Below are positions 9,828-14,964 of a stretch of 64,000 bases of DNA, piece by piece. Each line of letters opens with the position of its first letter. Within the stretch, counting starts at the first letter, position 1. This DNA is from Bordetella genomosp. 1. GTDB taxonomy: Bacteria > Pseudomonadota > Gammaproteobacteria > Burkholderiales > Burkholderiaceae_B. The DNA is taken from assembly GCF_002261335.1 (NCBI RefSeq), contig NZ_NEVL01000002.1, positions 620,001 to 684,000 on the forward strand. Reading direction: 5' to 3'. Below the pieces are notes generated by a model. That model made no database searches, had not been told where the DNA came from, and was given only the letters and a program-made list of their open reading frames with translations. The translations under genes and the position numbers were made by a program.

Positions 9828-11126
9828 ATGAACGCACTCAACGATTCTTTTCTGGGCGGCGCCGACAACGGCGTGCTGCGCCTCATCACGGCCGGCTCGG
9901 TCGACGACGGCAAGTCCACGCTGATCGGCCGCCTGCTCTATGACAGCAAGGGCGTGTTCGCCGACCAGCTCGACGCCATCGCGCGCGCCAAGTACAAGCG
10001 CGTGGCCGGCGACGGCATCGACTTCTCGCTGCTCACCGACGGCCTCGAAGCCGAGCGCGAGCAGGGCATCACGATCGACGTGGCCTACCGCTACTTCGCC
10101 ACGCCGGCGCGCAAGTTCATCATCGCCGACGCGCCGGGCCACGAGCAGTACACCCGCAACATGGTGACCGGCGCGTCCACCGCCGACGCCGCCATCATCC
10201 TGATCGACGCCACCCGCGCCGCCGACGGCGTGCTGCTGCCGCAGACCAAGCGCCACAGCACCATCGCCAAACTGCTCGGCCTGCGCCACATCGTGGTGGC
10301 GGTCAACAAGATGGACCTGGTCGATTGGGACGCGGGCGTGTTCGAACGCATCCGCGACGCCTACGCCGCGCTGGCCGCCAAGCTCGGCATCGCGACGTTC
10401 CAGATCCTGCCGCTGTCCGCGCTCAATGGCGACAACGTGGTCACGCTGTCGCCGCGCACGCCCTGGTACCAGGGCAAGCCGCTGCTGTCGCTGCTCGAGG
10501 AACTCGCAGTAGACGAAGACGCCAGCAGCAAGCCGCTGCGCCTGCCGGTGCAATGGGTGTCGCGTGAAGGCGGCGATCGTGCCGACGATTTCCGCGGCTA
10601 TGCCGGCCGGCTCGCGAGCGGCACGCTGCGCGCGGGCGACAGCGTGCAGGTGCAGCCGTCGGGCGTGAGCGCGGTGGTGCGCGAGGTGCGCGTGCATGAT
10701 CGCGTGCTCGATGCCGCGTACGCGGGCGACTCGGTCACCGTGGTGCTCGACCGCGACGTCGATGTGTCGCGCGGTGATGTGATCGTGCACGAGCAGGCAC
10801 CCGCGCGCGTGAGCCGCGAGTTCGATGCGGAGCTGTGCTGGCTCGACACGCAGCCGCTCAATCCCGCGCGCCGCTATCTGCTCAAGCATGGCACGCGACT
10901 GACCTCTGCGAAGATCCGCGCGTTGCACACGCGTCGCGACATACACGAGTTGCAGGAGGTGCCGAACGATGCGGGCGCGCTTGCGATGAACGACATCGGA
11001 CGCGTGTCGTTGATCACGCGCGAGTCGCTCGCGGTCGATGCGTATGACGAGATCGCGAGCAACGGCGCCTTCATCCTGATCGATGAAGCCACGCATCAGA
11101 CGGCAGCGGCCGGCATGTTGCGCTGA
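9828..11126 (+). CDS. cysN: Sulfate adenylyltransferase subunit 1 (GTPase)
   Basis: CysN is the EF-Tu-like GTPase that powers ATP sulfurylase. It is 432 residues long with G1 GSVDDGKST (residues 23-31), G3 DAPGHEQY, G4 NKMD and the beta-barrel domains after about residue 220. It is not fused to an APS kinase, which matches the APS-reducing CysH. The ATG at 9828 was chosen because the frame upstream reads through cysD in another phase. From about 10,570 to the end, codon choice changes clearly: Ala is mostly GCG and Asp often GAT, whereas the first half uses almost only GCC and GAC. This may mark recombination inside the gene. It is the last gene of the sulfur operon. Confidence 0.95.
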   Translation: MNALNDSFLGGADNGVLRLITAGSVDDGKSTLIGRLLYDSKGVFADQLDAIARAKYKRVAGDGIDFSLLTDGLEAEREQGITIDVAYRYFATPARKFIIADAPGHEQYTRNMVTGASTADAAIILIDATRAADGVLLPQTKRHSTIAKLLGLRHIVVAVNKMDLVDWDAGVFERIRDAYAALAAKLGIATFQILPLSALNGDNVVTLSPRTPWYQGKPLLSLLEELAVDEDASSKPLRLPVQWVSREGGDRADDFRGYAGRLASGTLRAGDSVQVQPSGVSAVVREVRVHDRVLDAAYAGDSVTVVLDRDVDVSRGDVIVHEQAPARVSREFDAELCWLDTQPLNPARRYLLKHGTRLTSAKIRALHTRRDIHELQEVPNDAGALAMNDIGRVSLITRESLAVDAYDEIASNGAFILIDEATHQTAAAGMLR

Positions 11127-11140
11127 ACGTCAAGAAGAGA

Positions 11141-11212
11141 CCGAAAAATCGCTGTTGTTTTTCGGCAAAGTGCTTATTAATCAACGACTTGTCCGCGATT
11201 TAACAAGTCTTT
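11141..11212 (+). terminator. Two hairpins after cysN, probable end of the sulfur operon
   Basis: CCGAAAAA (11141-11148) pairs with TTTTTCGG (11158-11165), and GACTTGT (11186-11192) pairs with ACAAGTC (11203-11209), the latter followed by TTTC. The T-tracts are short, so termination strength is uncertain, but this AT-rich stretch is the only plausible stop between cysN and the next promoter. Confidence 0.5.
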
Positions 11213-11271
11213 CGGCAATCCCGCAGACAGCCCGGGATGAGTTGCGGTAAAGTCGGTTAGCGGTTCAGGGC

Positions 11272-11300
11272 TTGCAAGAAGTACTGGTTTTTTGTACAGT
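11272..11300 (+). promoter_or_regulatory. Candidate sigma-70 promoter of the radical SAM gene
   Basis: TTGCAA (11272-11277) and TACAGT (11295-11300) are separated by exactly 17 bp and each matches the consensus at four of six positions. Transcription would start near 11307, which is the A of the proposed ATG start codon. This would give a leaderless message. The LexA-like box covers the spacer and the -10 element. Confidence 0.5.
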
Positions 11301-11301
11301 A
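11282..11301. promoter_or_regulatory. LexA-binding (SOS) box
   Basis: TACTGGTTTTTTGTACAGTA compares with the proteobacterial LexA consensus TACTG-TATATATA-TACAGTA. The flanks TACTG and TACAGTA are perfect; the only core departure is CTGG in place of CTGT in the CTGT-N8-ACAG motif. It lies on the candidate promoter and ends 5 bp before the ATG, an ideal position for repression. The gene behind it belongs to a family grouped with DNA-repair photolyases. Confidence 0.75.
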
Positions 11302-11306
11302 CTTTC

Positions 11307-13868
11307 ATGGCTAGCACTGAACATTCGCTTTCCGCCGGTTCTGGGTCCCCGGCTGCCGCCCCCGCCGCCTCGCGCGGTCGGGGTGCGGTTACTAATGTTC
11401 GCCACCGCTTCCAGCAAGACGACCGTGAAATCGTCCATGATGGCTGGCAAGAGGGGCTTGTCGATCTCGACGCCGGGTATCCGGAGGATGGTCACCCCCT
11501 GGCCACTCCGGAAGCGGCTGCAGCCGGCGTCCGCGCCGGCCGTTCGCGCCCCGCAGCGTCTGTCCCTGAATATCGTCCGGCCGCCGCCGGGGTTCGCGGT
11601 GCCGATGCATGCGCCGAGGCCCGCGGGGATGCCGACGATTCCGTCCCCGAATATTTCGACCACGCCGACGCCGGCTATCGGCGCGAGCGCTTCGACGACG
11701 CCTACGATCCCGCCGATTTCCGCCAGGCCGATCCCGACGAGCTCGAGGCGGTCGCCCTGCGCGAGGATGGGTCCGATATAGGTGTCGATCTCAGCCCTGA
11801 CGACGGCGAAACCACCGTCCGCATCGAGGCCGAGCCCGTCGCTACCGACGACTACGACCTCGCCGTCGACGAAGACTATTCCGATATCGATGAGGGCGGC
11901 CGCGGCCGTCCGGCCGGCGCCGCGAGCGTCGCCGGCGTCGCGCGGTCGCGCGGCGCGGCAGCCGCGGTCTCGTCCAGCGCCCGCAGCGGCTTCTGGGATC
12001 GCGTCTCCGCCTCCGGCGCCAGTGCCGCCGCGGTGCCGCGCAAGGCCTGGGCAGGGCAGGGCGCCGGCCGTCTGTCCGGCCACGATCCCGATCTGGATCA
12101 AGACGCCCTGCACGACCCGCTGCACGACACCCTGCACGATCACCTTCAAGATCGTTCTCACGAGCGCGGGGCCGTTGCGGCCTCCCACCGCCGTGTCCCC
12201 GCTGCCGAGGCCGCGCCGGCGCGCGCCGCGCTGGAGCTGCGGGCCGCGCGCACCACCGTGGTCTATCCGATGGCCTATCCGCCCGCGCCGGCGCGCTTCG
12301 GCGTGCAGGCGTCGTTGTCGGCGCTGGTGATGCACGATGCCGCGCACGATGGCGCGGATGCCGGGGCGGGATCGCCCAGCGGCGCGCCGCGCGCGTCCGG
12401 GCAGGGCGCCGATGCCGATCCGGCCGGTGCCAACACCTCGCCCTACACCGGCGCCGATGCGGGCGCGGCCCGCGCGCTGGCCCTGGCCCTGCAGGCGGCC
12501 GCCGCCCAGGCCGCGTTCGACGCGGCGCAGGCGGCCAAGGCGGTCCAGCGGAGCCAGGCAGCCCAGGTTGCTCAGGCTGCGGCCGGCGATGCCGCACACG
12601 CCGCCGCGCCGGATGGCCTGTCGGGCCCGGCGCCGCGTGCCGGCGCGGCCGATGGCCACGGCGATGCTGCCGAGGACGATGGCGGCGATGCCGCCCCTGC
12701 CGACACCGCGCTGGCGGTGCCGCGCGGGCTGTCCGCCGAATTCGCGCCGGTGGTGTTCCATCCGCGCCGTGGCGTGCTGCCGGGCTCGGTGGCGCCGGCG
12801 GCGCCGTCCCGCCACGATGCGGCGGCGCTGCGCGGCGGCGTCCCGCCGGCCGCGAGCATCCTGCCCACCGGCGGCGCGCTCAAGACCACGGTCAAGGCCG
12901 AGCAGGCGCGCAAGCTGTTGTCGCGCAACGATTCGCCCGACATTCCGTTCGATCAGGCGGTCAATCCCTATCGCGGTTGCGAGCATGGCTGCGTCTATTG
13001 CTACGCCCGTCCCACCCATGCCTACCTCGGCTATTCGCCCGGCCTCGATTTCGAAACCCGGCTGATCGCCAAGGCCAACGCGGTGGAGGCGCTGCGCGCC
13101 GAGCTCGCGCGGCCTGGCTATGTGGTCTCCCCGATCAACATCGGTTCGGCCACCGACGTCTACCAGCCCATCGAGCGCACTTGGAAACTCACCCGGGGCC
13201 TGCTCGAGCTGATGGACGAAACCGGCCATCCCGCCACGCTGGTCACCAAGAATGCCCTGGTCGAGCGCGACCTCGACATCCTGCAGCGGCTGGCCGCGCG
13301 CAACTTGATCACCGTCTACATCAGCATCACCACGCTCGACACCGCGATGTCGCGCACGCTTGAGCCGCGCGCCTCCGCGCCGTGGCGTCGCATCCAGGCG
13401 GTGCGCACGCTGGCGCGTGCCGGCATTCCGGTGGGCGTGCTGGTGGCCCCGCTGATTCCGTTCATCAACGACGACGCGCTCGAACACGTGATCGAGCACG
13501 CCGCCGCGGCCGGCGCGCGTTCGGCCAGCTACACCGTGGTGCGCCTGCCCTGGGAAGTCAAAGACGTCTTCGAGACCTGGCTGCACACGCATTTTCCGGA
13601 TCGCGCCCAGCGCGTCCTGCATCGCATCGAAGACCTGCGCCAGGGCCGGCTCAATGATCCCGACTTCGGCACGCGCATGCGCGGCACCGGCGTCTGGGCC
13701 GACCTCCTCAAGCAGCGGTTCCAGGTCGCCTTGCGGCGCTTCTCGATCCGCAACGAGCGCCACACGCTGTCGTGCGAACACTTCGTGGCGCCGCAGCTCG
13801 CGCCGCGCGTGTCGCGCCGCGAAGCCGCCGAGCGGGCGCGCCGGGAAGGTCAGATGGATCTGTTCTGA
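11307..13868 (+). CDS. PA0069-family radical SAM protein with a giant low-complexity insertion, 853 aa
   Basis: This belongs to the radical SAM group often annotated as SplB-like or PA0069 family, whose reaction is not established. The conserved N-terminal motif GRGAVTNVRHRF...DGW sits at residues 24-47. The conserved part resumes at about residue 526 (SRNDSPDIPFDQAVNPYRG), with the [4Fe-4S] motif CEHGCVYC at C558, C562 and C565, then ARPTHAYLGYSPGLDFETR. Family members are about 350-400 residues; here about 475 residues of acidic, HD-rich (ALHDPLHDTLHDHLQD) and Ala-rich sequence split the two halves. Third-position GC stays high through the insertion, so it is translated. ATG 11307 was preferred to an in-frame TTG at 11292 that lies inside the LexA box. 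No Shine-Dalgarno is visible. Confidence 0.8.
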   Translation: MASTEHSLSAGSGSPAAAPAASRGRGAVTNVRHRFQQDDREIVHDGWQEGLVDLDAGYPEDGHPLATPEAAAAGVRAGRSRPAASVPEYRPAAAGVRGADACAEARGDADDSVPEYFDHADAGYRRERFDDAYDPADFRQADPDELEAVALREDGSDIGVDLSPDDGETTVRIEAEPVATDDYDLAVDEDYSDIDEGGRGRPAGAASVAGVARSRGAAAAVSSSARSGFWDRVSASGASAAAVPRKAWAGQGAGRLSGHDPDLDQDALHDPLHDTLHDHLQDRSHERGAVAASHRRVPAAEAAPARAALELRAARTTVVYPMAYPPAPARFGVQASLSALVMHDAAHDGADAGAGSPSGAPRASGQGADADPAGANTSPYTGADAGAARALALALQAAAAQAAFDAAQAAKAVQRSQAAQVAQAAAGDAAHAAAPDGLSGPAPRAGAADGHGDAAEDDGGDAAPADTALAVPRGLSAEFAPVVFHPRRGVLPGSVAPAAPSRHDAAALRGGVPPAASILPTGGALKTTVKAEQARKLLSRNDSPDIPFDQAVNPYRGCEHGCVYCYARPTHAYLGYSPGLDFETRLIAKANAVEALRAELARPGYVVSPINIGSATDVYQPIERTWKLTRGLLELMDETGHPATLVTKNALVERDLDILQRLAARNLITVYISITTLDTAMSRTLEPRASAPWRRIQAVRTLARAGIPVGVLVAPLIPFINDDALEHVIEHAAAAGARSASYTVVRLPWEVKDVFETWLHTHFPDRAQRVLHRIEDLRQGRLNDPDFGTRMRGTGVWADLLKQRFQVALRRFSIRNERHTLSCEHFVAPQLAPRVSRREAAERARREGQMDLF

Positions 13869-14451
13869 CGCGTGGGCGTCAGCGTGAATCGTGCCGGTCT
13901 TCGGGCCGGATGGGTGGGCCGCGGGCAAGGCGGCTCCCGATGAGAGCGGTGCGCGGCGGCGGTGCGTGTGGCCATGTGGCCGCCGCCGCGCGCCGCCGCT
14001 CCACCCGACGGCCGGCGCCGTACCGCAGGCTTGCCCCCAGGCCGCTCGTCTCGGGTTGGCCTCGGGTTTGGCCTCGGGATGACCGCGGGATGACCGCGGG
14101 GTTGCGGTGGGTTTCACGCAGTGCGAGGCAGTTCGCGTTCGAGGCGGTTGGATGTCTTGGATGAGTTGGTTGTTTCCCCCGCGCCCAGGCGCGGCCTCAG
14201 TTTGGTCACGGCAGCCGATTGCCGTGGCGCTTGAATCTGGTCGAAGTCCTTCGGTTGTGCGCAGTGCGCGGCCGGCCCAGTCCCTCACCTGACTGGCCGT
14301 TGCATCGTCCGAGAGAGCCCGCGCGAGCCTATCGCGCAACGGTGTGTCAGATGGCGACGCACCGCGCTCTCCGGCTGTGCGGTCCTTCGGACTTCGCCCA
14401 GATGCCCCTCGCGCAGACACCGCGCAGGGCATCACGATCTAAGGAGTGATC
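13869..14451. other. 583-bp gap with a large hairpin and short tandem duplications
   Basis: No convincing gene was found. GCGCGGCGGCGG (13951-13962) and CCGCCGCCGCGC (13980-13991) form a perfect 12-bp inverted repeat around a 17-nt loop, about 80 bp after the radical SAM stop; it has no T-tract. At 14056-14101 two copies of TTGGCCTCGGG and two of TGACCGCGGG lie head to tail. The final 10 bases hold the ribosome-binding site of the next gene. Confidence 0.6.
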
Positions 14452-14964
14452 ATGAGCAGCGTAATCCTTTCCACCGATGGGCTCGACGAACTCGGCGCCG
14501 CCGCGGCAAATGGCCACTCGGCCCTGCGTCGCGGCATGCGCCGGATGCTGGCCGGTGTGCTGTCGCGCACGTTCGCGCCGGTGCTGGCGGGCGGCGGGCA
14601 GGGCGCGTTGCCCGCCACGCGCCGCTGGCCGTTCCCGCCGCTCGGACCGGCGCGCATGCCCGCCGGTCATCCCGCCAACGCGCCCGCGCAGCACGATGCG
14701 CCCGACACGGCGCAGCCGGCCGCGCCGGCAGGCGACGCCGTGGCGGCCGAGATGCCGGTCGGCGCCCATGTGCCGGGCGCCTCGGTATCGGGTGTGGCGG
14801 CGATGCGCAAGCCCGGTGGCGCCACCTTCGCCGCCGCGCTCGCGGCCGATCCGGCGCTGCGCAGTGCCTGGCGTCGCCGCCAGGTGATCGATGTGGCGCT
14901 GGTGGTGGGCTGGGGCGTGATGATCCCCGCCATGATGTGGGTCGGTGCCGCCGTCGGTTTCTGA
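14452..14964 (+). CDS. Unknown small protein with one C-terminal membrane segment, 170 aa
   Basis: I do not recognise this gene. The ATG at 14452 is preceded by AAGGAG at 14441-14446, an ideal ribosome-binding site, which is the main reason to believe it. The N-terminal third has a basic amphipathic stretch (SALRRGMRRMLAGVLSR), the middle is rich in Ala, Pro and Gly and looks unstructured, and the end has one hydrophobic segment (VIDVALVVGWGVMIPAMMW) after a basic RRR. A tail-anchored inner-membrane topology is likely. It follows the radical SAM gene after 583 bp and ends 15 bp from a convergent transporter gene. No function can be assigned. Confidence 0.65.
   Translation: MSSVILSTDGLDELGAAAANGHSALRRGMRRMLAGVLSRTFAPVLAGGGQGALPATRRWPFPPLGPARMPAGHPANAPAQHDAPDTAQPAAPAGDAVAAEMPVGAHVPGASVSGVAAMRKPGGATFAAALAADPALRSAWRRRQVIDVALVVGWGVMIPAMMWVGAAVGF

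Follow-up and report, generated by a model that had tools for sequence, protein, structure and literature searches.

The radical SAM gene at positions 11307 to 13868 (forward strand) of the window, by which we mean the whole 64-kb stretch of DNA analysed, probably starts in an SOS promoter that gives a leaderless message, with its first codons doubling as a structured RNA and with a gene for a small membrane protein linked to it downstream. We put the probability of this explanation as a whole at about 0.7. The encoded protein (853 residues) was assigned by NCBIfam profile search to the PA0069 family (NF033668; 455.3 bits for a cut-off of 360) and also matched PF04055; at E 0.001, no spore photoproduct lyase family was among its NCBIfam matches. 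It resembles this family in its radical SAM core, which scored above the curated cut-off, and in its N-terminal RGRGA motif, and differs from it by a linker of several hundred residues between that motif and the core. The radical SAM cysteine motif CEHGCVYC starts at residue 558. The best named relative in the genome scan, from which the own genome was perhaps left out, was from Bordetella genomosp. 5 (89% core identity), and a sequence search at E 0.01 gave no solved structure of a relative.

Positions 11272 to 11309, read directly, have the order TTGCAA-GAAGTACTGGTTTTTTG-TACAGT-ACTTTC-ATG. The -35 hexamer TTGCAA (11272-11277), of which the TTG is conserved in the short-gap loci described below, is separated by a 17-bp spacer from the -10 hexamer TACAGT (11295-11300), and the ATG (11307-11309), which is also the predicted transcription start, follows 7 nt after the -10, all on the forward strand. 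The LexA box TACTGGTTTTTTGTACAGTA (11282-11301, forward strand) covers both the spacer and the -10, ends 5 nt before the ATG, departs from CTGT-N8-ACAG by a single core base (CTGG) and is enclosed in a longer dyad, AGTACTG..CAGTACT. An earlier note on this DNA had claimed an SOS box that matched the LexA consensus except for one core base and lay over a -35/-10 pair spaced 17 bp. Both points were borne out, the mismatch being accompanied by a full dyad. Each hexamer matches its consensus at 4 of 6 positions, and the pair was not reported by a simple promoter scan (8/12 hexamer matches, for a threshold of 9). That the ATG is the start codon is supported by the conserved RGRGA motif, which comes 22 codons later; from the upstream stop to RGRGA, a TTG inside the box is the sole alternative start in frame. 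No Shine-Dalgarno-like tract is present before the ATG at 11307.

The core match alone is no evidence for a LexA site, because sites with one mismatch to CTGT-N8-ACAG are not rare in the window (6, compared with a mean of 13.8 after shuffling). Perfect copies of TACTG-N10-CAGTA number four in the 5.6-Mb genome, the one at 11282-11301 among them. The genome has one lexA (a single match to TIGR00498, 238.7 bits), and a box, CTGTATATACATACAG, lies shortly upstream of its start. LexA operators are known as an E. coli-type consensus and as an alpha-type motif, GTTC-N7-GTTC. For each relative, we scored as much as 400 nt of sequence ahead of the conserved N-terminus for an E. coli-type CTG box (score of at least 20) and for an exact GTTC-N7-GTTC. 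This was done at 234 usable loci, which were the best-scoring of each draw or chosen by hand rather than a random sample (L094 was left out, having too little upstream sequence). A CTG-type box was found at all 55 loci of the same family (within up to 430 nt around the gene start) and in none of the 430-nt stretches taken inside the same 55 genes. Over the 234 loci together, the gene-internal controls of this length gave no CTG-type box and one exact GTTC or GAAC pair. The site thus stands above chance, since the box is conserved across the family loci and absent from gene interiors, and the sequence comparison makes it very likely that LexA controls this PA0069-type gene.

The box was also present at 10/10 loci from other families of the order and at 10/10 from family f161 of the same class. 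Among loci assigned to a group by record title, it preceded 27 of 30 named beta and 7 of 15 named gamma genes; it was found at 9/14 loci of other chosen families of the class and in 2 of the best 30 matches from other orders of the class. No CTG-type box was detected in the alpha and other-class groups (0/67) or at the three loci of unclear class. GTTC-N7-GTTC was present at 58 of the 67 loci from alpha (by title) or other classes of the phylum, namely 26/31 named alpha, 27/30 in the phylum draw and 5/6 chosen phylum loci, as well as at 2/3 loci of unclear class and 1/55 of the family draw; the remaining groups had none. A further operator type is that of the Xanthomonads; its motif was not found at ten loci lacking the CTG box. 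From these counts by group, LexA control very likely accompanies the gene from class to class, with an operator of changing type and with a clear gap in many other gamma orders. The control by LexA that the earlier note proposed for this gene is therefore supported by the family (55/55), the order (10/10), f161 (10/10) and the alpha-type sites (58/67). The same note had started from PA0069, which we also take to be a LexA-regulon gene of P. aeruginosa, and had suggested that this control is kept across classes. The idea held for beta, for f161 and, with another motif, for alpha, and failed for 28 of the best 30 matches from other orders of the class and for 8 of 15 named gamma loci, all without a CTG box. 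The scan of homologue promoters that it called for was likewise positive throughout the family (55/55) and missed the box at 3/30 named beta and 5/14 chosen same-class loci.

Evidence that the message is leaderless was obtained from the distance between box and start codon. The present locus is one of 28 in the family at which 5-6 nt separate the end of the box from an in-frame ATG (short-gap class), and at 24 the first in-frame ATG comes 10-21 nt from it (long-gap class). Of the remaining three of the 55, L026 has two ATG codons, at 3 and 18 nt, and neither L041 nor L045 has one in frame over this distance. TTG-N17-TACAGT stands at the same places in 28/28 short-gap and 0/24 long-gap loci, while a Shine-Dalgarno-like tract precedes the ATG in 0/28 and 14/24, respectively. 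When all box-bearing loci were considered, 33 of the 35 distinct short-gap loci (37 before two duplicates were dropped) had TTG at the -35, compared with 4 of 83 others. The same arrangement, TTGCAA-N17-TACAGT followed by a 6-nt gap and ATG, was found without the enzyme gene at 17 of 18 loci of genus g27, the exception (L318) being a shifted match caught by the script. The shared geometry thus gives good support to the prediction of a leaderless message, with transcription starting at the ATG, which the earlier note had proposed from the position of the predicted start point and the lack of a visible Shine-Dalgarno sequence.

Two other readings of the promoter region have to be weighed. The box and the promoter might be real and the message nonetheless not leaderless, with an upstream start or a processing event and with the ATG read by another route. 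This fits with a start site that is a prediction and with hexamers that match at only 4/6 positions each and went unflagged by the promoter scan; it is contradicted by the constant spacing of pair and ATG in the short-gap class, which the long-gap class lacks, and by its recurrence in g27, and we consider it unlikely, though the most serious of the alternatives. The other is that the box is a relic, weakly bound by LexA, in front of a gene that is mainly constitutive. The CTGG in place of CTGT would agree with this, but the box is kept at every family locus, and a site with CTGG and CCGT arms also precedes, in the same genome, an ORF (L087) that we take to be DinB-like; a relic is accordingly very improbable.

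The first codons of the gene contain a second conserved feature. In 26 of the 35 distinct short-gap loci, codons 10-31 hardly vary in their bases, while the first nine codons do vary; the other nine loci are without the element. The block corresponds to a predicted two-hairpin RNA at 11334-11396 (codons 10-30), in which synonymous sites are nearly frozen in six genera. Hairpin P1 (11334-11353) has the form GCCGG-(TTCTGGGTCC)-CCGGC with a conserved 10-nt loop, and hairpin P2 (11355-11389) has 14 pairs and two bulged bases. A strand ACTAA at 11391-11395 could tentatively pair with bases 11342-11346 of the P1 loop to form a pseudoknot (all on the forward strand). This pairing involves 4 or 5 of 5 pairs at a fixed offset in 28 of 33 copies, with a mean of 4.06 compared with 1.3-3.5 at other offsets, and has one mismatch in 14 of 15 Bordetella-type copies. 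The sequence GCCGGTNNTGGGTCCCCGGC occurs once in its own genome when up to 2 mismatches are allowed; a search of this type over 268 genomes at 3 mismatches was too loose for use. Rfam 15 gave, for 10900-11700 at E 1, two matches that were both far below the gathering score and outside the element, and no match for four g27 loci at E 0.5.

A covariance model (R1) had matches in 95 of the 268 family genomes, of which 76, from six genera, gave strong matches (at least 91 bits), 17 belonged to g27 (29.7-48.3 bits) and two gave weak ones. None of the 17 matching g27 genomes contained the radical SAM family (these are drafts, 76-97% complete, of which 8 pass the 90/5 quality line). In g27, the RNA lies between a promoter of the same type and a gene for a small membrane protein ending like ...FWVAMIPAVLLIGNAAGF, and the reading frames across the block differ. 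Matches below 29 bits in G083 and G011 and a second match in G686 were taken as chance. Outside the family, a model R2 gave 11 weak matches (19.7-25.1 bits) among 300 genomes of the order, which lacked the P1 signature and, within the loci retrieved, a TACTG-N10-CAGTA box, and were also put down to chance. We also considered an overlapping ORF in the +1 frame (PVLGPR) as the conserved entity. Most g27 loci do have it in frame with the ATG of the promoter, but Bordetella uses another frame, and in L318, L320, L321 and L327 the ORF is truncated or falls out of frame; it was therefore rejected.

To what the block owes its conservation can be judged from its codons and its pairs. A constraint on the protein N-terminus alone would account for RGRGA and its flanking residues being invariant in the 26 loci, but it is already contradicted by the synonymous sites: among invariant residues, a single codon is used at 11 of 17 in the block and at 5 of 126 in the catalytic core, both counted in one set of 23 genes (L070, L082 and L084 were left out of the 26 because the ungapped register failed), and median pairwise synonymous identity is 0.91 in the block compared with 0.59 in the core. 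It is contradicted as well by the presence of the block in g27, where the protein family was not found (0/17) and the frames differ, so that we regard this explanation as scarcely tenable. A DNA site for another regulator is a better candidate, yet still quite unlikely. In its favour, P1 forms a dyad (GCCGG-N10-CCGGC) with a stem that is constant throughout the Bordetella-type set, and the folding energy is ordinary (z -0.16; between 4% and 79% of synonymous-random versions of seven genes fold at least as stably). In that set of 18 distinct rows, no pair is changed on both sides; of the 19 pairs, 17 are constant, one is altered on a single side and one is disrupted in 2/18 rows. The case for an RNA structure there consequently rests on g27, since no pair in the set itself changes on both sides. 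Against a DNA site, 12 of the 14 variable positions of the Bordetella-type set are unpaired and 36 of the 38 paired positions are invariant (Fisher p 0.0001), and P2 differs widely in g27 yet keeps its pairing, the aligned copies showing compensatory changes. Nine pairs, all in P2, were changed on both sides in 33 copies including g27, in an alignment (A2) that was fitted to the structure. None of 500 shuffles equalled the real alignment on any of the measures, and sliding the structure along it gave no more than 4 such pairs. A second alignment, made of 13 copies and not fitted to the structure, still had 6 of 15 pairs changed on both sides. P1 is beyond this test because its stem hardly varies.

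The small membrane-protein gene, a homologue of that found in g27, is located at 14452-14964 on the forward strand, about 580 nt after the radical SAM gene, and an apparent Shine-Dalgarno sequence, AAGGAG, can be read at 14441-14446. Its product (170 residues) has a C-terminal hydrophobic segment ending WGVMIPAMMWVGAAVGF and had no Pfam or NCBIfam match at E 0.1. We found no LexA-like box belonging to this gene itself in 13701-14452 (best score 14). Of the 76 genomes that matched the RNA strongly, at least 66 encode the tail of the protein 1.5-3.5 kb downstream of it, on the same contig and the same strand; 5 have the tail on another contig, its place is not listed for 3, and it was not found in 2, which are drafts (57% and 73% complete). 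More broadly, 200 of the 268 family genomes, representing 36 of 43 genera, encode the tail, mostly once. We inspected 40 copies chosen by hand from the matches, mostly from genera without the RNA. A LexA box lay within 500 nt of the tail gene in 38, of which 37 have two or more scoring positions, and the same search on the reversed sequence gave 1/40. The two copies without a box (L403 and L404) have less than 200 nt of upstream sequence; they were counted as misses and left out of the search with model R2, which exceeded 30 bits at 3 of the 38 loci (L371, L393 and L396, all g27; next best 12.8 bits). Because only these three matched, the RNA appears to be limited to part of g27 and the Bordetella clade and not to accompany every copy of the membrane gene. 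From the boxes, the membrane gene looks to be damage-controlled too. Other small SOS membrane proteins are damage-time checkpoints or membrane-acting peptides, and by analogy this one may act in either way.

We propose that LexA sits on 11282-11301, over the spacer and the -10, and would there block RNA polymerase. Upon DNA damage, LexA would be cleaved and transcription would begin at the A of the ATG or next to it, giving a message with no leader, the first hundred bases of which would at once encode the N-terminus of the radical SAM protein and fold into the two-hairpin RNA. Assuming read-through from the radical SAM gene into the membrane gene, promoter, RNA and membrane protein would form one SOS unit, into which the radical SAM gene would have been inserted, ahead of the membrane gene, in Bordetella, Achromobacter and their near relatives. 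The widespread form of the unit would be an operator with the membrane gene, with a structured leader RNA between them in some lineages; in the Bordetella/Achromobacter clade the radical SAM gene would have come to lie between RNA and membrane gene with its N-terminal codons forming the RNA, although the order of events in this assembly is conjectural. With the radical SAM gene inside the unit, the regulatory RNA would therefore also encode the N-terminus of the enzyme. Structured leaders are known to act as a brake or timer for small SOS membrane peptides such as TisB. That the present RNA likewise acts in cis to brake or time how the SOS message is translated or degraded is the role we favour for it, but this is the weakest step, drawn by analogy, and we hold it tentatively, at somewhat less than even odds. 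Slightly closer to even, though still short of it, is our estimate for the most novel proposal, namely an SOS unit, which we have not found described, consisting of a LexA operator, a structured leader RNA (perhaps pseudoknotted) and a small tail-anchored membrane protein, with a leaderless radical SAM gene inside it in one clade and with the RNA timing both proteins in the damage response.

These data link the SOS response to a widespread, uncharacterised family of radical SAM enzymes through operators that change type between classes, and they offer a concrete candidate for a leaderless SOS promoter. They also point to one stretch of DNA that would be at once codons and folded RNA, for which g27, having the RNA without the protein, is a natural control, and to an SOS-linked membrane protein, unmatched in Pfam and NCBIfam, that most genera of the family (36 of 43) possess. 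The earlier note had mentioned neither the RNA at the start of the coding sequence nor the membrane gene and its link to SOS. A limited search of the open-licence literature gave no description of either the RNA element or the membrane protein; the Bordetella pertussis RNAs of one report were, according to the part consulted, sought in intergenic regions (PMC3110155).

The arrangement is reminiscent of known systems in several respects. In E. coli, tisB/istR comprises an SOS-controlled small membrane protein behind a structured leader. The likeness that we draw to the present locus, an SOS-linked small membrane protein behind a structured leader, concerns the arrangement, which differs in that a radical SAM gene intervenes in the Bordetella clade. 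New here are the two-hairpin RNA in codons 10-30, present also in g27, where the enzyme gene was not found, and the membrane gene with its link to the SOS response. A LexA box before such a radical SAM gene is an arrangement of a kind already predicted, and the box by itself is not new in kind, because LexA control of splB radical SAM genes is already in print. In passages of the reports concerned, LexA control of splB was predicted in alpha- and beta-Proteobacteria with several chromosomes (PMC3323433), the radical SAM protein SplB (COG1533) was described as SOS regulated in several species (PMC8565304), and LexA-type sites for splB/COG1533 were predicted across alpha- and beta-Proteobacteria and Bacteroidetes (PMC3323433, PMC8565304). 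These regulons share with our loci LexA-type sites before radical SAM genes of the same broad group, the identity of splB with the PA0069 family being only presumed, while the same passages are silent on a leaderless geometry, an RNA or a membrane gene. The splB trait is stated there as not observed in gamma (PMC3323433), whereas we found the box at 10/10 loci of f161 and 7/15 named gamma loci. In Streptomyces venezuelae, the radical SAM gene vnz_31145 has, in the part of the report consulted, a LexA ChIP signal and a LexA site (PMC9380542). It is thus, like the present gene, a radical SAM gene with a LexA site, though with another LexA motif, and the two are compared by description, with no family membership presumed (PMC9380542).

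In the radical SAM protein encoded in the window (PA0069 family), the conserved N-terminal RGRGA motif and the Cys motif lie 530 residues apart, the intervening linker, rich in alanine, aspartate and glycine, being encoded by about positions 11400-12870. The corresponding distance was 430, 204, 157, 101, 82 and 61 residues in relatives. Some Bordetella have a long linker separating the N-terminal motif from the radical SAM core. Antisense to the gene, the minus strand holds an open frame of 1056 codons (11265-14435), which we regarded as a high-GC artefact.

Between the promoter and the cysN-like upstream ORF lies an inverted repeat (CCGAAAAA...TTTTTCGG, 11141-11165). Although absent from the output of the terminator scan, it is possibly the terminator of that ORF.

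In genus g27, where promoter and two-hairpin RNA occur without the enzyme gene (loci L310-L317 and L322-L326), the promoter ATG starts an ORF that contains VLGPRQP and spans the RNA. In some copies it stops near the Shine-Dalgarno sequence of the small membrane-protein gene. This ORF possibly encodes a leader peptide.

Elsewhere in the Bordetella genomosp. 1 genome, three strong LexA boxes (L003/L055, L004 and L054, each at about position 1500 of its locus) precede short ORFs that share a THHLG motif, followed further along in L004 and L054 by LDRLQKFGAVEKS. These would be small SOS-linked genes. The L058 box (CTGTATATTTATACAG, about position 1500) lies about 27 nt upstream of a 303-aa ORF whose sequence includes MSARILTGTASWTDP..., and the perfect TACTG-N10-CAGTA site of L002 (TACTGGATAAAAATCCAGTA, 1501-1520 of the locus) about 106 nt upstream of a response-regulator-like ORF.
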